From Curtobacterium aurantiacum (GTDB taxonomy: Bacteria > Actinomycetota > Actinomycetes > Actinomycetales > Microbacteriaceae): a DNA stretch of 64,000 nt. Both the position numbers and the translations under genes were made by a program. The notes beneath the pieces were generated by a model. That model saw nothing but the letters and a program-made list of their open reading frames with translations. It did no database searches and had not been told where the DNA came from. Every line of letters starts with the position of its first letter. The first letter of the stretch is position 1. Of the stretch, positions 17,357-24,939 are shown piece after piece. The stretch covers positions 62,001 through 126,000 of the forward strand of contig NZ_JAHEWN010000001.1 in assembly GCF_018598555.1 (NCBI RefSeq), read 5' to 3'.

Positions 17357-17935
17357 ATGGCCCGATTCACGCCCCCAGCCGCTGACGCGATGCGCGCCCG
17401 GCTCCTGCTCGCCGCGCGGGACGAGTTCGCCGCGGTCGGACTGGCCGCCGGCAGGGTCGAACGGATCGGTGCCGCGGCGTCGAGCAACAAGGCGCAGGTC
17501 TTCCACTACTTCGGCAGCAAGGAGGGGCTGTTCGACGCCCTCGTCGCGGACACCGTGACCGAGACGTTCGCCGAGGCCCCGCTCGACACCGCTGACCTCG
17601 CCGCCTGGGCCGGCCGGGTGCACGACTCCTACGTCCGTCGCCCCTGGGCCCAGCGGCTCGCGACCTGGCACCGGCTCGAGCGCGCCGACGTCCCGCTCGA
17701 GTCCGTCGCGACCAGCTACGCAGACGCGGTGGCCGAGGTCGAGCACGCCCAGCGCGCCGGGGTCCTGCCGCGGGCGTTCCGTCCGGCGGTGCTCCTCGGG
17801 CTCGTCCTGCACGCCGCGGCGTTCTGGAGCGCGACCGCTCCGGAGTACGAGCCGCTGGTGCAGGCCGTGACGCCGCCGCGGCGTCGCCAGGTCGTGGCCG
17901 ACGCGGTCACGGCCCTGCTCGGCGGGAAGTCCTGA
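17357..17935 (+). CDS. TetR-family transcriptional regulator
   Basis: DNA-binding repressor of unknown target. The 192-residue product starts at ATG 17357. Residues about 10-57 form the TetR helix-turn-helix, with AARDEFAAVGLAAGRVERIGAAASSNKAQVFHYFGSKEGLFDAL; the FHYFGSKEGLF stretch is diagnostic. The C-terminal part (about 65-190) is helical and ligand-binding in the family. An in-frame GTG nine bases upstream is a possible alternative start. The only same-strand neighbour is the membrane protein upstream, which it may regulate; a terminator-like palindrome follows. Confidence 0.88.
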   Translation: MARFTPPAADAMRARLLLAARDEFAAVGLAAGRVERIGAAASSNKAQVFHYFGSKEGLFDALVADTVTETFAEAPLDTADLAAWAGRVHDSYVRRPWAQRLATWHRLERADVPLESVATSYADAVAEVEHAQRAGVLPRAFRPAVLLGLVLHAAAFWSATAPEYEPLVQAVTPPRRRQVVADAVTALLGGKS

Positions 17936-17970
17936 CCGAGCGATCCGCGGGCGCCAGCGTTAGCGCCGCC

Positions 17971-18016
17971 GGACGGAACGTGCGGGGCGGAGCCGCACCG
18001 CGCCTCCTGGCCGTCC
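17971..18016. terminator. Palindromic intergenic element, likely two-way terminator
   Basis: GTGCGG (17980-17985) pairs with CCGCAC (17993-17998), inside a longer degenerate dyad from GGACGG (17971) to CCGTCC (18011-18016). The right arm CCGCACCGCGCCTCC is the same as in the elements at 15725 and 37891. It lies between the convergent TetR and GntR genes. Confidence 0.65.
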
Positions 18017-18017
18017 C

Positions 18018-18662
18018 TCAGTCGGCTGCGCCGGCGGCGACCCGCAGCGTCCGCTCGGCGTCGTCGAGGTAGTCGGCGAGCAGCGCCGAGGCGCCGTCCT
18101 GGTCGCCACCGCGCAACGCGGACACGATCGCGTCGTTGCGTTCGACGAAGTCGGCGTGGAACGAGGCAGGGTCCGCGGTGGTCAGGAAGGCGAGCCGCAT
18201 CTCGGCGAGCAGCCCGTCCATCAGGGCGTGGATCCGCTCGCTCGGCACCGCGCGCACGAGCTCGGCGTGGAACCGGATGTCGGCGGTGCCGACCGCGCCC
18301 CAGTCGCCCGCGGACGCCGCTGCCCGGGCGTCGGCGACCGCTGCAGCGGCCTCGGCGAGTGCCGGCGAGTCGGGGGTGCAGGCGCGGACGGCTGCCTCCT
18401 CGAGCACCCGCCGAGCCGCGTAGAGATCGGTGACGTCGTCGGCGGAGAGCCGGCGGACGAACACGCCGCGGTTGAACACGTGCTCGACCAGACGGTCGCG
18501 GGCGAGCAGCCGGAACGCCTCGCGCAGGGTGTTCCGCGACACCCCGAGCTGGTCGCTCAACCGCTCCTCGGACAGCTGCGCCCCGGGGGAGAAGTCGCCC
18601 GAGGCGATCATGGTGCGCAACCGCGTGGCCGTGGAGTCAGCGCCGCCGACGGTTCGGGTCAT
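18018..18662 (-). CDS. GntR-family regulator (FadR/FCD subfamily)
   Basis: Likely local repressor of the 5-oxoproline genes. From ATG 18662 it encodes 214 residues: a winged helix-turn-helix (about 8-70) with GDFSPGAQLSEERLSDQLGVSRNTLREAF followed by LVEHVFNRGVFVR, then an all-helical FCD ligand domain (about 80-205) with DLYAARRVLEEAAV and FHAELVRA. FCD-type GntR proteins usually bind an organic acid and sites of the form TTGTnnACAA; such a palindrome lies at 18728-18740 in the divergent promoter, and a near copy precedes pxpA at 24547-24559. The longer frame extending upstream would overlap the DUF969 gene and is not used. Confidence 0.9.
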   Translation of the reverse strand: MTRTVGGADSTATRLRTMIASGDFSPGAQLSEERLSDQLGVSRNTLREAFRLLARDRLVEHVFNRGVFVRRLSADDVTDLYAARRVLEEAAVRACTPDSPALAEAAAAVADARAAASAGDWGAVGTADIRFHAELVRAVPSERIHALMDGLLAEMRLAFLTTADPASFHADFVERNDAIVSALRGGDQDGASALLADYLDDAERTLRVAAGAAD

Positions 18663-18727
18663 GGCACCGATCCTGGCATGCGTGGCGATTGTGAAGGGCG
18701 TGTTACAGAGCGGAACCGGCTCTTGCG

Positions 18728-18740
18728 ATTGTTGAACAAT
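18728..18740. promoter_or_regulatory. GntR operator ATTGTTGAACAAT
   Basis: Perfect 13-bp odd palindrome (ATTGTT-G-AACAAT) between the divergent GntR gene and the DUF969 gene, 19 bp ahead of ATG 18760. Form and place fit an FCD-type GntR operator that controls both directions. The matching site at 24547-24559 differs at one end base. Confidence 0.8.
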
Positions 18741-18759
18741 GCGGTCCAGACTGTCCCGC

Positions 18760-19467
18760 ATGTTCGTCCTCATCGGCGTCGCCGTCGTCATCGTCGGCTT
18801 CGCGCTGCGCATCAACGCGCTCCTCGTCGTCACGGTCGCGGGCATCGTGACCGCGGCCATCGGCGGGATCGGTCCCGTCGGCATCCTCGACGCGTTCGGC
18901 AACGGGTTCGCCTCGAGCCGGTCCGTCACGACCTTCGCGCTCGTCCTGCCCGTCATCGGCCTGATCGAGCGCTACGGCCTGCAGGACCAGGCGAAGCGCC
19001 TCATCGCGAAGCTCGACAAGCTCACGACGGGTCGCCTGCTCGCCGGGTACCTGGTGATCCGGCAGGTCACCGCGGCGGTCGGCCTGACCAGCATCGGTGG
19101 CCCGGCGCAGACCGTGCGCCCGCTGGTGTACCCGATGGCCGAGGGCGCGGCGACGAAGAAGTACGGGCGGATCGACGAGCGGATGCGCGAGAAGATCAAG
19201 GGCTACTCGGCCTCGTCCGACACCGTCGGCGTGTTCTTCGGCGAGGACGTCTTCGTCGCCGTCGGCTCGATCCTGCTCATCACGACCTTCGTCGACTCGA
19301 CGTACGGGCTGTCGCTCGAGCCGATCGACCTGGCGCTCTGGGCCATCCCCACCGGCATCGCAGCGCTGATCGTGCACGGCGGACGCCTGCTGCTGTTCGA
19401 TCGCCGACTCGACAAGATGGCGGCGGACGCCCGTGCCGACGCCCCGACCCTGGGGGCAGCAGCGTGA
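18760..19467 (+). CDS. DUF969 membrane protein, probable 5-oxoproline permease component
   Basis: Integral membrane protein of the DUF969 family, always found beside DUF979. From ATG 18760 it has 235 residues with about six hydrophobic segments, including FVLIGVAVVIVGFAL at the start and VGSILLITTFVDSTYGL later, plus the conserved-looking stretch VGLTSIGGPAQTVRPLVYPMAEGAA in the middle. An ATG at 18739 lies inside the operator palindrome, so the later start is preferred. The stop overlaps the DUF979 start as GTGA. DUF969/DUF979 pairs are associated with pyroglutamate genes in many genomes, and a joint role as 5-oxoproline transporter is the best hypothesis here. Confidence 0.85.
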   Translation: MFVLIGVAVVIVGFALRINALLVVTVAGIVTAAIGGIGPVGILDAFGNGFASSRSVTTFALVLPVIGLIERYGLQDQAKRLIAKLDKLTTGRLLAGYLVIRQVTAAVGLTSIGGPAQTVRPLVYPMAEGAATKKYGRIDERMREKIKGYSASSDTVGVFFGEDVFVAVGSILLITTFVDSTYGLSLEPIDLALWAIPTGIAALIVHGGRLLLFDRRLDKMAADARADAPTLGAAA

Positions 19468-20546
19468 TCACCAGCGAATGGCTCTACTGGCTCATCGGCG
19501 CGTTCTTCATCGCCGTCGCCGTCCTGATCGTCACCGACACCGCGCACGCGAAGCGCCTGGGCAACGCGGCGTTCTGGGGCATCCTCGGCCTGTCGTTCTT
19601 CTACGGCACCTTCGTCGCCGCGGGCACCGTGCCGGCCTGGACGCTCGGGATCGCCGTCCTCGTGATGGTCGCGCTCGCCGGGCTCGGCTTCACCGGCACG
19701 ACGAGCCGCACCCGGGTCGCGAGCATCCCCGGCGCGGGCACCGGTGCCGAGACCGGCCCCGCCGAGCCCACCGGCGTGACGCAGAAGATCACGAACGCCG
19801 GCAGCGGCAGCACGAGTGTGCTCGCCACCACCAGCCCCGACGAGCGTGCCGGGTTCGCGACGAAGTACGGCAACCGGCTCTTCATCCCGGCGCTCGTGGT
19901 GCCGGTGGTCGCCGTGCTGGTCGCGACGCTCGGCCCGCTCGTCTCGTTCGGCGGCGAACCGCTGCTGGCCGAGGGCAGTGCGACCCTGACCGGCCTGGGC
20001 ATCGGTTCGGTGCTCGCCGTGGTCGTGGCCGTGTTCGTCCTGCGCCCGCCGAAGGTCGCCACCCCGATCCGCGAGGGCGGACGGCTGCTGCAGGCGATCG
20101 GCTGGGCGGCACTGCTGCCGCAGATGCTCTCGACGCTCGGCATCGTCTTCACCCAGGCCGGGGTCGGTGACGCCGTCGGCACGATCATCAAGTCGGTGCT
20201 GCCGGAGAACTCGCTGCTCGCCGCCGTGGTCATCTACTGCCTGGGCATGGCCCTGTTCACGATCATCATGGGCAACGCCTTCGCCGCCTTCCCGATCATG
20301 ACGGCCGCGATCGGCTGGCCCGTCCTGGTGCAGGGCTTCGACGGCAACCCGGCCGCGATCTTCGCGATCGGCATGCTCGCCGGCTTCTGCGGCACGCTCG
20401 TGACCCCGATGGCCGCGAACTTCAACCTCGTGCCGGCCGCCCTGCTCGAGATGCGGGACAAGTACGGCCCGATCAAGGCGCAGATCCCGACCGCCGCCAT
20501 CCTGCTCGTCGTCAACATGGGAGTCATGTACCTTGTCGCATTCTGA
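19464..20546 (+). CDS. DUF979 membrane protein, partner of DUF969
   Basis: Integral membrane protein of the DUF979 family; with DUF969 it probably forms a permease. Start is GTG 19464, inside the DUF969 stop. The 360 residues include two or three N-terminal hydrophobic segments, a soluble loop rich in Thr/Gly/Ala (about 85-130), then about six more segments, with the stretch MLAGFCGTLVTPMAANFNLVPAALLE near the C-terminus that is typical of the family. DUF2891 begins 14 nt before its stop. The tight coupling of three genes behind one operator supports a single uptake and processing unit. Confidence 0.85.
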   Translation: MITSEWLYWLIGAFFIAVAVLIVTDTAHAKRLGNAAFWGILGLSFFYGTFVAAGTVPAWTLGIAVLVMVALAGLGFTGTTSRTRVASIPGAGTGAETGPAEPTGVTQKITNAGSGSTSVLATTSPDERAGFATKYGNRLFIPALVVPVVAVLVATLGPLVSFGGEPLLAEGSATLTGLGIGSVLAVVVAVFVLRPPKVATPIREGGRLLQAIGWAALLPQMLSTLGIVFTQAGVGDAVGTIIKSVLPENSLLAAVVIYCLGMALFTIIMGNAFAAFPIMTAAIGWPVLVQGFDGNPAAIFAIGMLAGFCGTLVTPMAANFNLVPAALLEMRDKYGPIKAQIPTAAILLVVNMGVMYLVAF

Positions 20547-21588
20547 TGCCGCCCCGATCGACCTGACCCGGGCCGCCTGGGCCGACCGCTTCGCGGCCGT
20601 CGCCGCGGACAACACCACCCGCGAGTACCCCTACGCAGCGCACCACGCGACGTCCGGACCGGACGACCGGGCACTGCCCGTCGAGCTCCACCCCGCCTTC
20701 GCCACGTCGTACGACTGGCACTCGTCGGTGCACATGCACTGGCTCGCGGCGCGCCTGGTCGCGCACGGCCTGCCCACCGAACTGGAGGCCCGGCTCACCT
20801 CGATCCTGCAGGCGCACCTCACGACGGATCACCTCGCGACCGAGGCGGCCTACCTGCGCGAGACCCCGCACTACGAGCGCCCCTACGGCTGGGCCTGGCT
20901 CGCGCGGCTCGCCGCCGAGGTCTCGGCATCCGAGGCGCCCGCCGTCCGGGCACTGGCCCCGGGGTTCGCGCCGGTCGTCGACGTCCTCGAGGACCTGGTC
21001 GTCCGGTGGATCGACGGCGCAGCACACCCTGTCCGGCACGGCGTGCACTCGAACTCGGCGTTCGGGTTGCTGCTCGTGCTCGAGGCCGCCCGGTCGCTCG
21101 ACCGTCCGGCCCTGGCCGCCGCGATCGAGGGGGCCGCGAAGGAGTGGTTCGGCACGGACGCCGGCTGGCCGTTCGCCTGGGAGCGGAGCGGGCACGACTT
21201 CCTGTCCGCAGGCCTGGCCGAAGCCGACCTGATGCGTGCCGTGCTGCCGGCCCCGGAGTTCGCCGCGTGGGCGCGCGGGTTCTTCGCCTCGGTGCAGCCG
21301 GGCGACGCGATCCTGCGCTCGACGGTGGTCCGCGACGAGAACGACCCGCAGCAGGTGCACCTGTTCGGGCTCGACCTGTCGCGTGCGGGGTCGGCCCGGC
21401 GCATCGCGGACGCACTCGGCGACGGCGGCTCGGACGGCACCGGCGTCGCCGACCTGCTCGACGACGCGGCGGACCGGCTGCTGACCTCCGGGCTCGCGGC
21501 GAGCGTGGGCGAGGAGTACTACTCCACCCACTGGCTGGCGAGCTTCGCCTGGGACGCCATGGAGGCCCGGGAGCACGCCGCTCGCTGA
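20533..21588 (+). CDS. DUF2891 family protein
   Basis: Soluble 351-residue protein of the DUF2891 family, whose members look like helical-barrel glycosyl-hydrolase-like proteins but have no established reaction. Seen: HPAFATSYDWHSSVHMHW near residue 52-70, EERPYGWAWL-like HYERPYGWAWLARL near 112, HSNSAFGL near 170, and EEYYSTHWLASFAWDA near the end, all characteristic. The start is TTG 20533, 9 nt after GGGAG (20519-20523), overlapping the end of the DUF979 gene. Its place in the DUF969-DUF979 operon suggests it acts on the imported compound or a precursor, such as a pyroglutamyl or related amide; this is inference. Confidence 0.85.
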   Translation: MSHSDAAPIDLTRAAWADRFAAVAADNTTREYPYAAHHATSGPDDRALPVELHPAFATSYDWHSSVHMHWLAARLVAHGLPTELEARLTSILQAHLTTDHLATEAAYLRETPHYERPYGWAWLARLAAEVSASEAPAVRALAPGFAPVVDVLEDLVVRWIDGAAHPVRHGVHSNSAFGLLLVLEAARSLDRPALAAAIEGAAKEWFGTDAGWPFAWERSGHDFLSAGLAEADLMRAVLPAPEFAAWARGFFASVQPGDAILRSTVVRDENDPQQVHLFGLDLSRAGSARRIADALGDGGSDGTGVADLLDDAADRLLTSGLAASVGEEYYSTHWLASFAWDAMEAREHAAR

Positions 21589-21650
21589 CCGTCGTCGGGA
21601 GCGCTGACCGTCTGCGGACACGTCGAGGATCCGGAGGTACCTTCGGGGCC

Positions 21651-21833
21651 ATGAGCGATCCGAAGGACGACGACACCCTCGACGACTTCCGCGAGGCGCA
21701 GGAGACCGACTACGAACCGGAGCCGACCGTGCTCGACCCCGACGACCTGCCCGTGGTCGACGACGCGGACGACGAACTGCTCCCCGACGACGACCGGCCG
21801 GTGCCGCTCGACACCGACGACGACACGATCTGA
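21651..21833 (+). CDS. Small, extremely acidic protein
   Basis: Not recognised. The 60-residue product from ATG 21651 is dominated by Asp and Glu, with Pro and Val between, no hydrophobic segment and no Cys. A GGAGG lies at 21632-21636, rather far from the start. Such proteins are probably disordered; some actinobacterial homologues may exist but no function is known to me. It follows the DUF2891 gene by 62 bp and converges with the monooxygenase-fold gene, so it may simply be a separate small unit. Confidence 0.6.
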   Translation: MSDPKDDDTLDDFREAQETDYEPEPTVLDPDDLPVVDDADDELLPDDDRPVPLDTDDDTI

Positions 21834-21878
21834 GTGATCGCGCCGTCGTCGGGCCGCGGCACCGGCGTCGGCGTCACC

Positions 21879-22181
21879 TCAGTCGAGCGGGACGGTCCGC
21901 GCGAAGGTGCGGGTGATCGGCGCGGTCGCCAGGAGCGGGCCGATGGCTGCTGCACCCTCCGGGGTCGCGCGCCACGCGACGTAGGTGTCGTGGTCCTCGG
22001 CGGTCGTCCACGACTCGACGACGACCATCGTGTTCGGGTCGGCATCGTCGACCAGGACCTCGAGCGACTCGAGTCCGTGGAACGACGCGGTCTGTTCGAG
22101 CGTCTCGCGGATCGCCGTCTCGACGGCATCGGCGGGGGCGTCGCTCTGGAACTGGACCTCGAGCAGGACGGTCATCGACAT
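21879..22181 (-). CDS. ABM-fold (antibiotic biosynthesis monooxygenase-like) protein
   Basis: Small ferredoxin-like alpha+beta protein of the ABM superfamily, which includes quinol monooxygenases and stress proteins. The 100-residue product starts at ATG 22181 behind GAAAGG. Seen: MTVLLEVQFQSD as first strand, SFHGLESLEVLVDDADPNTMVVVESW as the central strand pair, and AEDHDTYVAWRATPEGAAAIGPLL as the helix. It is downstream of pxpC on the same strand with a hairpin between them. Substrate cannot be told; members with this fold may degrade quinones or haem, or have no catalytic role. Confidence 0.8.
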   Translation of the reverse strand: MSMTVLLEVQFQSDAPADAVETAIRETLEQTASFHGLESLEVLVDDADPNTMVVVESWTTAEDHDTYVAWRATPEGAAAIGPLLATAPITRTFARTVPLD

Positions 22182-22212
22182 GGGGAACCTTTCGTCAGCG
22201 GTCTCCAAGCCA

Positions 22213-22241
22213 ACCCCGGACCCCCTGCACTTGTTCCGGGT
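22213..22241 (-). terminator. Weak hairpin after pxpC
   Basis: TCCGGGT-type arm at 22235-22241 pairs with ACCCCGGA at 22213-22220 with one bulge, four bases after the pxpC stop. It may attenuate read-through into the ABM gene. Confidence 0.35.
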
Positions 22242-22244
22242 CGG

Positions 22245-23129
22245 TCAGTCGACGATGCGGAAGCGGATCACGTCGCCCGGGCGGAGCTGTGCGGCACGGT
22301 CGACGGATTCCGGCGTCAGGACCGCGACGACCGGGTAGCCGCCGGTCACCGGGTGGTCGGCGAGGAACAGCACCGGGAAGCCCTCTGGTGGGACCTGCAG
22401 CGACCCGGTCTCGACGCCCTCGCTCGGTAGTTCCCCCGTGACGGCGCGGGCGAGCGGTGTCCGTGCGGTGGTGCGGACCCCGACGCGGTCGCTGTCGGCG
22501 CTGACGGAGAAGTCCTGGCCGGTCAGGGTCGTCCGCCACTCCGGGGCGAACCAGTCGTCGCGGGGACCGGGTACCAGGTCGAGCACGACCGGCTCGTCGG
22601 GCCACCGCGGTTCGGGTTGCGGCACGGCGTCCACGATCGGCCACGAGACCCGGGCATCCCCGACGGGCAGGACGTCACCGGCCGTCAGCGGCGGCGGGCC
22701 GAGGCGCGCGAGGGAGTCCCACGAGCGACTACCGAGCACGGGTTCCACCGCGAAGCCGCCGAGGACCGCGACGTAGGTGCGGAGTCCCACGGTCGCGGTG
22801 CCGATCCGGAGCGTGTCGCCCGGTGCCAGCAGCACGACCTCGTGGGAGGCCGCGCCGCGGACCCGGCCGTCCGCCCGCTCGACCTCGACGGGGCAGGCCG
22901 CGCCGGCGGTGGCCGCGACCACGTACGTGTCGGCGCGGAGCGTGACGGAGCCGAGCAGGGCCTCCAGGACGGCGGCGTCGGGACGGTTGCCGACCAGCCG
23001 GTTGGCGAGCGCCGCGGAGCCGCGGTCGGCGGCGCCGGCCGCGCCGAGGCCCATGTCGCTGAAGCCCGGGCGCCCGAGGTCCTGCGTGGTCGCGCCGTAG
23101 CCGACCTGCACGACGGTCAGCGCGGTCAT
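22245..23129 (-). CDS. pxpC: 5-oxoprolinase subunit PxpC (biotin-dependent carboxyltransferase-like)
   Basis: Subunit of the prokaryotic ATP-dependent 5-oxoprolinase, which converts 5-oxoproline to glutamate. The 294-residue product starts at ATG 23129, overlapping the pxpB stop as ATGA; the longer frame upstream lies inside pxpB. Seen: VGYGATTQDLGRPGFSDMGLGAAGAAD at the N-terminus, GSRSWDSLARLG in the middle, VLDLVPGPRDDWF, DRVGVRT and the C-terminal PPEGFPVLFLADHPVTGGYPVVA, all typical of the allophanate-hydrolase-subunit-2 (KipA/AHS2) family. The full pxpA-B-C set plus the operator upstream makes the assignment firm. Confidence 0.92.
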   Translation of the reverse strand: MTALTVVQVGYGATTQDLGRPGFSDMGLGAAGAADRGSAALANRLVGNRPDAAVLEALLGSVTLRADTYVVAATAGAACPVEVERADGRVRGAASHEVVLLAPGDTLRIGTATVGLRTYVAVLGGFAVEPVLGSRSWDSLARLGPPPLTAGDVLPVGDARVSWPIVDAVPQPEPRWPDEPVVLDLVPGPRDDWFAPEWRTTLTGQDFSVSADSDRVGVRTTARTPLARAVTGELPSEGVETGSLQVPPEGFPVLFLADHPVTGGYPVVAVLTPESVDRAAQLRPGDVIRFRIVD

Positions 23130-23758
23130 GCCACACCCGCCTCGACGAACCGGACGAGCGTGCCGGCGGGGGCGAGCGCCGGAGGCGTGCGGTCGAGCGA
23201 CCACATCGGGACGTCGGTCCGGCCGATGAGCTGCCACCCACCCGGCGAGGTACGTGGGTAGACGGCGCTGAACTCGCCCGCCAGGGCGACCGCGCCGCTC
23301 GGGACGGCCGTGCGGGCGGTGGCCCGGCGGGGCAGGTCGAGTGGTCGATCGCTGCCGGTGAGGTAGCTGAAACCGGGGGCGAAGCCGCAGAACGCGCTCG
23401 TCCAGAGCTGCTCGGTGTGCCAGGACACGAGGTCGTCGCGCGTCATGCCGGTCAGCTCGGTGACGGCGTCGAGGTCCTCGCCGTCGTACGTGACGGGGAT
23501 GACGAGCGGCTCGGAGTCGCCCGCGTCGATCGTGTCGGTGTCCGGGGTGACGCGCGTCAGGTCCGAGCGGAGTCGTGCTGCGTCCGTCGTCGTCGGGTCG
23601 TACCGGAGCAGCAGCGTCCGGGCTCCGGAGACGACCTCGGTCACCCCGGGCAGCGCGGCGTCGGCGAGTCCGGCGCGGAAGGCGATGACGTCGGCGAGGG
23701 AGTCGAACGTGGCGAGGAGTGCGGTGCCGCCAGCGGAGCGGACCTCGGGACCGGTCAC
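23126..23758 (-). CDS. pxpB: 5-oxoprolinase subunit PxpB (KipI/AHS1 family)
   Basis: Partner subunit of PxpC in 5-oxoprolinase. The 210-residue product starts at GTG 23758 in a GTGA overlap with pxpA. Diagnostic stretches include the CGFAPGFSYLTG motif (about 122-133), SVWP-like LDLPRRATARTAVPSGAVALAGEF and the YPRTSPGGWQLIGRT region near the C-terminus. The early part (about 1-80) is the more variable domain. Related KipI proteins inhibit a sporulation kinase in Bacillus, but in this gene context the enzyme role is far more likely. Confidence 0.92.
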   Translation of the reverse strand: MTGPEVRSAGGTALLATFDSLADVIAFRAGLADAALPGVTEVVSGARTLLLRYDPTTTDAARLRSDLTRVTPDTDTIDAGDSEPLVIPVTYDGEDLDAVTELTGMTRDDLVSWHTEQLWTSAFCGFAPGFSYLTGSDRPLDLPRRATARTAVPSGAVALAGEFSAVYPRTSPGGWQLIGRTDVPMWSLDRTPPALAPAGTLVRFVEAGVA

Positions 23759-24525
23759 GGCACGAGTGGTGCGAACGGGGCGATCGTGACGCCGTGCTCG
23801 GTCAGGAGCGTCCGGATCGCACGGGCCATCGCGACGGCGTCGGGGGAGTCGCCGTGCACGCAGACCGAGTCGGCACGGACCGCGATTTCGGAGCCGTCGA
23901 CCGCGGTGGCGACGCCCTCCGTGACCATGCGGAGCACGCGGGCCGCGACCTCGTCCGGGTCGTGCAGCACGGATGCCGGCTGCTTGCGGGACACCAGGGA
24001 TCCGTCGGGCTTGTACGCGCGGTCCGCGAAGGACTCGCTCACCGTGCGGAGTCCGTACCGCTCGGCCGCGAGCAGGAGTTCCGACCCGGGCAGCGCGAGC
24101 ACGGCGAGGGACGGGTCGACGTCGGCCACGGCACGGACGACCGCCTCGGCCGGCACCGGGTCGGCGCAGGCCGTGTTGTAGAGGGCGCCGTGTGGCTTGA
24201 CGTACGTGACGGCGGTGCCGGCCACGCGGGCGGCGGCGGCCATGGCGCCGAGCTGGTGGACGACGTCGGCGTGCAGCTCGTCGGGCGTCACGTGCACCGG
24301 GCGACGACCGAAGCCGATGAGGTCGCGGTATGCCACGTGGGAGCCGATCGCGACTCCGCGCTCGGCGGCGGCGCGGGCCGTCGCGAGCATGATCGTCGGG
24401 TCGCCGGCGTGGAAGCCGCAGGCGACGTTGGCGCTCGAGACGACGTCGAGCATCGCGTCGTCGTCGCCCATGGCCCAGGCGCCGAAGCCCTCGCCGAGGT
24501 CGCTGTTCAGGTCGATCGTCGTCAC
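23755..24525 (-). CDS. pxpA: 5-oxoprolinase subunit PxpA (LamB/YcsF family)
   Basis: Subunit of 5-oxoprolinase with the LamB/YcsF fold. From GTG 24525, preceded by AGGGAG, it encodes 256 residues starting near the family motif DLNSDLGEGFGAW; other seen motifs are SANVACGFHAGDP, GSHVAYRDLIGFGRR, VKPHGALYN, ESFADRAYKPDGSLVSRKQP and CVHGDSP. The longer frame upstream runs through the operator and is rejected. It heads the pxpABC unit, with the GntR-type palindrome 22 bp upstream of the start. Confidence 0.93.
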   Translation of the reverse strand: MTTIDLNSDLGEGFGAWAMGDDDAMLDVVSSANVACGFHAGDPTIMLATARAAAERGVAIGSHVAYRDLIGFGRRPVHVTPDELHADVVHQLGAMAAAARVAGTAVTYVKPHGALYNTACADPVPAEAVVRAVADVDPSLAVLALPGSELLLAAERYGLRTVSESFADRAYKPDGSLVSRKQPASVLHDPDEVAARVLRMVTEGVATAVDGSEIAVRADSVCVHGDSPDAVAMARAIRTLLTEHGVTIAPFAPLVP

Positions 24526-24546
24526 GGGTGCTCCCTGTCCTCGCGG

Positions 24547-24559
24547 GTTGTTGAACAAT
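24547..24559. promoter_or_regulatory. Second GntR-type operator, upstream of pxpA
   Basis: GTTGTTGAACAAT matches the 13-bp palindrome at 18728-18740 in 12 positions, keeping the full TTGTT-G-AACAA core. It sits 22 bp ahead of the pxpA start, where repressor binding would block initiation. It links pxpABC to the GntR gene 6 kb away. Confidence 0.78.
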
Positions 24560-24695
24560 CTACCCAGCGAGTCGGTCCGTGTCATCCGTCCTCCGGTCCG
24601 GGGACGGCTGTTTCCGAGGCGCGCCACGTACTGTTCGAGTCCTCAGTACCACCGGAGGCAGCGTCTCCGGATCGACCTCTGCACTGGAGCAGCTC

Positions 24696-24866
24696 ATGTC
24701 TGACAGCGACAACACCCACGGCGCCCCGAAGAACGACTCGGAGGGCACCGAGAAGCCGGCCGGCCTCGGCGACGACAACACGATCCCGAACAACCCCGAC
24801 GGCCTGGCTGCCGGCCACACCGACGAGGACTCGCACTTCAACCCCGAAGAGGACGGCGAGCAGTAG
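24696..24866 (+). CDS. Small hydrophilic protein
   Basis: Not recognised. The 56-residue product from ATG 24696, with GGAG six bases upstream, is rich in Asp, Glu, Asn, Gly and Pro with no hydrophobic segment; the middle reads GLGDDNTIPNNPDGLAAGH. It is likely disordered. It is a free-standing gene with its own strong terminator at 24886-24939. Composition resembles small stress-related or desiccation-type proteins only loosely, and no function is proposed. Confidence 0.65.
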   Translation: MSDSDNTHGAPKNDSEGTEKPAGLGDDNTIPNNPDGLAAGHTDEDSHFNPEEDGEQ

Positions 24867-24885
24867 GCGCTTCGCTACTCGGGTC

Positions 24886-24939
24886 GACGCAGAACGACAC
24901 CGTCGTTGTCCTCCGACAGCGGCGGTGTCGTTCTGCGTC
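24886..24939. terminator. Strong hairpin terminator
   Basis: A perfect 17-bp stem: 24886-24902 (GACGCAGAACGACACCG) pairs with 24923-24939, with a 20-nt loop. It lies 19 bp after the small hydrophilic protein gene and 32 bp before the end of the convergent gene, so it can serve both. Confidence 0.85.

Follow-up and report, generated by a model that had tools for sequence, protein, structure and literature searches.

The 64,000-nucleotide stretch of Curtobacterium aurantiacum DNA analysed here (the window; G+C content 71.8%) contains, at positions 18018–24559, a probable 5-oxoproline (pyroglutamate) regulon. Open reading frames (ORFs) and a Pfam profile search resolve two converging operons with predicted operators at their outer ends. 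On the left, a minus-strand pxpR-like gene (18018–18662) encodes a 214-residue protein of the GntR-FCD repressor type (Pfam GntR 6.9e-17, FCD 1.3e-18). It diverges from three plus-strand genes. DUF969 (18760–19467; PF06149, 1.1e-85) and DUF979 (19464–20546; PF06166, 6.3e-109) are adjacent and would encode the subunits of a probable 5-oxoproline permease; a DUF2891 gene follows (20533–21588; PF11199, 2.1e-93). The DUF969 ORF is open from 18739, and a start at 18760 is more likely because homologues begin at the corresponding methionine. On the right, the minus strand encodes the three 5-oxoprolinase subunits together: pxpA (23755–24525; LamB_YcsF, 2.2e-100; NF003814 PxpA, 372.9 bits against a cut-off of 226), pxpB (23126–23758; CT_C_D, 1e-59) and pxpC (22245–23129; CT_A_B, 5.6e-76). 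The Pfam domains of PxpB and PxpC are above the gathering score. The window, to which this search was confined, gave no match to an NRAMP-type PxpT transporter, and it has no match to pyrrolidone-carboxylate peptidase (Pcp).

A preliminary description of this DNA had pointed to two near-identical 13-mers, one at the divergent GntR/DUF969 promoter and one at pxpA, and both are present as described. Operator 1, ATTGTTGAACAAT (18728–18740), lies between pxpR and DUF969 and ends 19 bases before the preferred DUF969 start. Operator 2, GTTGTTGAACAAT (24547–24559), differs from it by a single base and begins 21 bases upstream of the pxpA start codon. A scan for further sites in the whole genome (3,603,541 bases, 35 contigs) found the core TTGTTGAACAA exactly twice, both times at this locus, and its reversed control pattern not at all; we claim no third target. 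The exact core TTGTTSAACAA occurs twice in the window and in none of 100 dinucleotide shuffles. The 13-mer with up to three mismatches is not striking in the window, with five matches against a mean of 1.91 expected and 6 of the 100 shuffles reaching five. Searched with at most two mismatches, the looser palindrome RTTGTTNAACAAY gives 95 genome matches compared to 23 for the reversed control, and weak operator-like matches therefore carry no weight. Two of the 95 were inspected. The only further one-mismatch match was rejected as a third target, as the ORF it overlaps looks by eye like a cold-shock gene, and one two-mismatch match was rejected as a regulon member, as it overlaps an ORF of doubtful coding.

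Operator 2 coincides with a predicted promoter. The sigma-70-like sequence ATGACA-17-TAGATT (24557–24585, minus strand) is the only promoter-like match in 17900–24900, where shuffles give a mean of 0.2, and its -10 element overlaps operator 2 by three bases. A protein bound at this operator would be expected to block RNA polymerase. The sister species G257 (G and L numbers are our handles for genomes and loci) shares the -10, the TGACA of the -35 and the distance between the two elements, and it also has the core of operator 2, which is absent in three sisters without pxpR. Operator 1 is kept in G257 and G053. The same scan of 17900–24900 gave no promoter for DUF969; the stretch GTGTTACAG before this gene, also kept in G257, is too little to name as a -35 element.

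Operator 1 is the reverse complement of the centre of agattgttcaacaatct, a site characterized in Corynebacterium glutamicum. According to the excerpted text of PMC13274462, PxpR of this organism is a GntR repressor that controls pxpTABC through agattgttcaacaatct, and mutation or deletion of the site raises a reporter 6.5-fold. The same excerpts report that PxpR binds 5-oxoproline with a KD of 726 nM, that calorimetry detected no binding of L-glutamate, L-glutamine, L-proline or L-aspartate, and that the NRAMP-type transporter PxpT is required for growth on free 5-oxoproline. We located the C. glutamicum locus through the PxpR site and confirmed it by the primers of PMC13274462. A reciprocal best-hit search pairs the window GntR with PxpR: the window protein finds PxpR in C. 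glutamicum at E 2.0e-38 (next 6.2e-13), and PxpR finds the window protein in its genome at 3.4e-38 (next 2.7e-7). The two are identical at 77 of 206 positions. The recognition helix of the window protein reads SRNTLREAF, and SRNTLRE is common to PxpR. Among 42 GntR-like proteins, the top-scoring ones of the fetched loci with the window's included, each helix position is kept in at least 39, except the A (34 of 42). Eleven GntR-like paralogues were fetched from the window's genome; none of the ten that were aligned carries SRNTLRE, the nearest being SRNSLRE. With a GntR helix-turn-helix and an FCD domain, this reciprocal best hit and a TTGTTSAACAA core at its own locus, the protein is classed as PxpR-type.

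Both loci have a GntR-FCD repressor gene divergent from a transporter gene, the same operator core upstream, and PxpABC. They also differ. In C. glutamicum the NRAMP-type PxpT is encoded in one operon with pxpABC, whereas the window has DUF969/DUF979, with DUF2891, in place of PxpT, and divides the genes between two convergent operons that have one operator apiece. The exact 17-mer PxpR site occurs in 9 of 242 Corynebacterium genomes, at 10 places; the 3 kb read at each place includes pxp or NRAMP genes in five cases.

The coupling of regulator, operator and transporter was followed in a family sample of 299 genomes, in which PxpA (PF03746) is found in 152 and DUF969 in 6. Nineteen regions bearing the bare core were fetched, and nine of them hold a PxpR-like gene together with pxp genes. 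A further 80 pxpA loci were taken, one each from 80 of the 152 pxpA genomes; they were hand-picked across genera with the operator list already known, not drawn at random. About 8 kb was read on either side (some contigs are shorter), so that a transporter elsewhere in the genome would be missed, and GntR matches below 38% identity (e.g. L200) were not counted as PxpR. The core was sought in different places in the two groups, namely the GntR-NRAMP (regulator-transporter) gap at 18 loci with a PxpR-like gene, and the 300 bp upstream of pxpA at 62 loci without one. It is exact in 9 of the 18, present with at most one mismatch in 16 and with at most two in all 18, compared to 0, 0 and 1 of the 62 (Fisher tests: 2.1e-7, 5.7e-15 and 5.3e-17). 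Even within 9 kb of pxpA, none of the 62 loci has an exact core.

The full set of PxpR loci, the window apart, comprises 27. It includes L054–L057, L059–L061, L067 and L069, which were chosen for their operator or DUF969 and were left out of the Fisher tests; L058 (DUF969, without pxpA or core) and ten regions that carry the core without any pxp gene (L062–L066, L068 and L070–L073) stand outside both the set and the tests. Each of the 27 loci has exactly one transporter type in reach, NRAMP in 23 and DUF969/DUF979 in four, and neither type was found in any of the 62 loci without a PxpR-like gene. Regulator, operator and transporter thus travel as a package.

Eight of the 27 loci (L057, L067, L176, L185, L186, L207, L208 and L226) have a second operator-like site, with at most two mismatches, 21 or 22 bp from the first, and L186 has a further pair 42 bp apart. 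Between 11 and 60 bp, no other distance was observed. The 21/22-bp spacing, two helical turns, suggests paired dimers on one face of the DNA. The window operators are single sites. In Azospirillum griseum (L086:3627–5210) two operator cores 17 bp apart lie directly before a PxpR-like gene (45%), which is followed by a frame that by eye we take to be of the DUF1989 family. In G142 and G194 (L062–L066) the operator core is found at places without a pxp gene within about 6 kb.

NRAMP and DUF969/DUF979 are exchanged within one genus (g78) under the same operator. At L059, L060 and L061 the operator stands before the NRAMP gene and again before pxpA, and L231 has a single operator between NRAMP and GntR. 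In G193 of the same genus (L055), the operator precedes a DUF969-DUF979-DUF2891-pxpA-pxpBC-accC run, with no NRAMP gene in reach. Among genomes with the exact 17-mer, Pseudarthrobacter enclensis has the order pxpABC-accC-GntR-DUF969-DUF979-DUF2891, and Arthrobacter psychrochitiniphilus and Glutamicibacter uratoxydans have the NRAMP form. G257 and G053 share the window's layout, in which the two operons converge and the operators lie outside; G053 has two operators before DUF969. In the window's genus, the three sisters G031, G105 and G214 have retained pxpABC (about 80% DNA identity), and no PxpR, DUF969 or operator was found at this locus in any of them. G163 and G295, which belong to the genus too but whose pxpA is more distant (61%), likewise lack PxpR, DUF969 and the operator. 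The pattern would fit either acquisition of the package together with its operator or its loss from the sisters.

A link between DUF969/DUF979 and 5-oxoproline has been described before. In the excerpts of PMC12795558, a Campylobacter jejuni mutant of cj0552–4 (DUF969/979/2891) loses growth on 5-oxoproline, and cj0552–cj0554 contain DUF969, DUF979 and DUF2891 in the window's order. On 5-oxoproline transport by the pair, this growth experiment is the only result that our searches turned up in print. The passage on these genes describes regulation that responds to glutamine and names no PxpR-like regulator, whereas the window has a PxpR-like gene. DUF979 is placed in an ion-transporter clan with DUF969 as its predicted partner (PMC11467057, in excerpt), and a metabolic model of Bacillus megaterium, as described in part of PMC6904757, assigns the pair to pyroglutamate transport by homology. 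The clusters of Niehaus 2017, as cited in excerpts of PMC11467057 and PMC12795558, show the same co-occurrence of DUF969-DUF979 with prokaryotic 5-oxoprolinase and led to a suggested transport role; these citations mention no operator or regulator, whereas the window has both. Our literature searches found no paper joining DUF969/979 to PxpR or its site, although a RegPrecise prediction named in PMC13274462 may already hold the link.

In the wider collection, the exact 17-mer occurs in 94 genome stretches, 42 of which have a G+C content of at least 0.57. Thirty of these 42 have pxp or NRAMP genes no more than 500 bp away; the other 12 have none within that distance, two of them lying at a stretch edge. 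Among the lower-G+C stretches the count is 0 of 52, as expected of chance matches. DUF969 is found in 11 of 396 phylum-sample genomes, one of them as a fragment. Besides the window, four Streptomyces-like genomes (name inferred) carry DUF969-DUF979-Pcp-DUF2891 adjoining pxpABC; two of these loci have the core and one has a PxpR-like gene. DUF969-DUF979-Pcp runs occur in five genomes that belong to another family, and Pcp also lies within the run of G065. In the family sample, pxpABC clusters with DUF969 in the window and in four of the five other DUF969 genomes, and the fifth (G063) has Pcp. All 16 complete DUF969/979 loci that were read (the window, L054–L058, L085 and L279–L287) adjoin PxpABC, Pcp or both. 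These are enzymes that use or make 5-oxoproline.

Sequence establishes the gene identities, the two sites, the orthology of the regulator and, across the family's pxp loci, the association of PxpR with the site and a transporter. We consider it very probable that the locus constitutes a 5-oxoproline utilisation regulon, built from a PxpR-type repressor, two operators, a DUF969/979 permease and PxpABC. By analogy with the tested relatives, the repressor would occupy the operators before DUF969-DUF979-DUF2891 and at the -10 region of pxpA and block both convergent operons. Cytoplasmic 5-oxoproline would bind the FCD domain and release it. DUF969 and DUF979 would together form a membrane permease that imports 5-oxoproline, which PxpABC would open to glutamate at the expense of ATP. 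The preliminary description had joined the GntR gene, DUF969-DUF979-DUF2891 and pxpABC into one circuit, and this is borne out by the PxpR operator centre, the reciprocal best hit and the coupling of operator and PxpR in the family. Its proposal of DUF969/979 as a 5-oxoproline permease gains support from the C. jejuni phenotype and from the exchange with the NRAMP type under the same operator.

Several observations weigh against this assignment. The identity of the window GntR to C. glutamicum PxpR is low (37–38%), and the NCBIfam models for PxpB (TIGR00370) and PxpC are matched below their cut-offs. The 11-base core alone is unspecific: it occurs in 88 of the 299 family genomes, many of them small genomes in which the reversed control matches too, and 10 of the 19 fetched core-bearing regions have no pxp gene. 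At the other five of the ten Corynebacterium 17-mer places, the 3 kb read contains neither a pxp nor an NRAMP gene. Among the Streptomyces-like DUF969 loci, two of four lack the exact core and three of four a PxpR-like gene. In six pxpA-less genomes the DUF969/979 pair occurs with Pcp, so supplying PxpABC is not its task in every genome. Finally, the C. jejuni growth result is described by its authors, in the excerpts of PMC12795558, as preliminary and comes from a mutant of all three genes.

The pxpA-less contexts bear on what the permease carries. In G063, G617, G838, G552, G818 and G757 (L058, L283–L287) the pair lies beside Pcp and the genome has no pxpA match, and Pcp stands in the run of G065 and of the four Streptomyces-like genomes. 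DUF969/DUF979 might then carry pyroglutamyl peptides, or export 5-oxoproline, with Pcp or PxpABC acting on the moved compound. We regard this as unlikely for the window, which has no Pcp match, and the Pcp-linked pairs without pxpA are divergent from the window pair (32–42% identity). At the PxpR loci the pair replaces the NRAMP-type PxpT, which C. glutamicum needs for growth on free 5-oxoproline (PMC13274462, in excerpt), and it was growth on free 5-oxoproline that the C. jejuni mutant lost (PMC12795558, in excerpt). Contexts without pxpA do disfavour import as the only role. It is possible, though we hold it only tentatively and think it rather doubtful, that DUF969 and DUF979 make up a heteromeric pyroglutamate carrier working in both directions, which has been exchanged in evolution with the unrelated NRAMP-type PxpT while the PxpR switch stayed the same. 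In genomes with Pcp but no PxpABC, the carrier would run outward and vent pyroglutamate cut from peptides by Pcp.

Sensing of the product is known in some catabolic regulons, and the preliminary description had named 5-oxoproline or glutamate as the effector. The 5-oxoproline half of that claim agrees with the KD of PxpR; glutamate was dropped, since C. glutamicum PxpR bound 5-oxoproline whereas no L-glutamate binding was detected (excerpts of PMC13274462). Glutamate would also make a poor signal, its pool being high in many bacteria, and we judge a glutamate-sensing GntR highly improbable. A chance repeat, or sites belonging to another FCD-type GntR of the genome, would fit the core found away from pxp genes in the fetched regions and the 12 of 42 high-G+C 17-mer stretches without a pxp or NRAMP neighbour. 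TTGTTGAACAA also agrees with the general FCD/FadR-type consensus. This explanation is extremely improbable given the absence of the core from all shuffles, its two genome copies at one promoter each, the coupling of the operator to PxpR-like genes at pxp loci, and the different recognition helices of the ten aligned paralogues.

Further features of the locus stand apart from this argument. The DUF2891 protein is probably an accessory enzyme with an alpha-barrel fold. It is unlikely to be a permease subunit, given this fold and its gene adjoining pxpABC without DUF969 in G123 and G225 (L210, L211), where PxpR is missing as well. The predicted model (mean pLDDT 63) matches best two entries of its solved C. 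jejuni homologue Cj0554 (Z 27.9, rmsd 3.1, 309 aligned; Z 27.4, 3.1, 306). Other fold matches run from Z 15.9 down and include YihS-type isomerases (14.7–14.9); the modelled fold does not assign a function. For DUF979, no sequence match was found among solved structures up to E 1, and our literature search found no paper for the structure code 8IEU. An ABM-domain gene (21879–22208, minus strand; Pfam 1e-7) follows pxpC in the window and in two sister species (L168, L169), and in G257 it lies directly upstream of pxpA (L054:12479–12781). On either side of the pxp operon lies a short acidic ORF (21651–21833 and 24696–24866); the first has no Pfam match.

The regulator, its site and the permease role are each already in print separately, and the window locus is probably a PxpR regulon with a different permease rather than a new kind of system. 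What is new is the union of regulator, site and permease, the exchange of transporters under one operator, and the DUF969/979-Pcp loci in six pxpA-less genomes. A single gene cluster joins two separate 2026 results, a repressor that senses 5-oxoproline and the requirement of DUF969/979 for growth on this compound. It provides independent regulatory evidence for a permease role of two Pfam families still named as of unknown function, and unrelated transporters are exchanged under one operator. PxpR together with a transporter may indicate strains living on external pyroglutamate, and pxpABC by itself would point to housekeeping repair.

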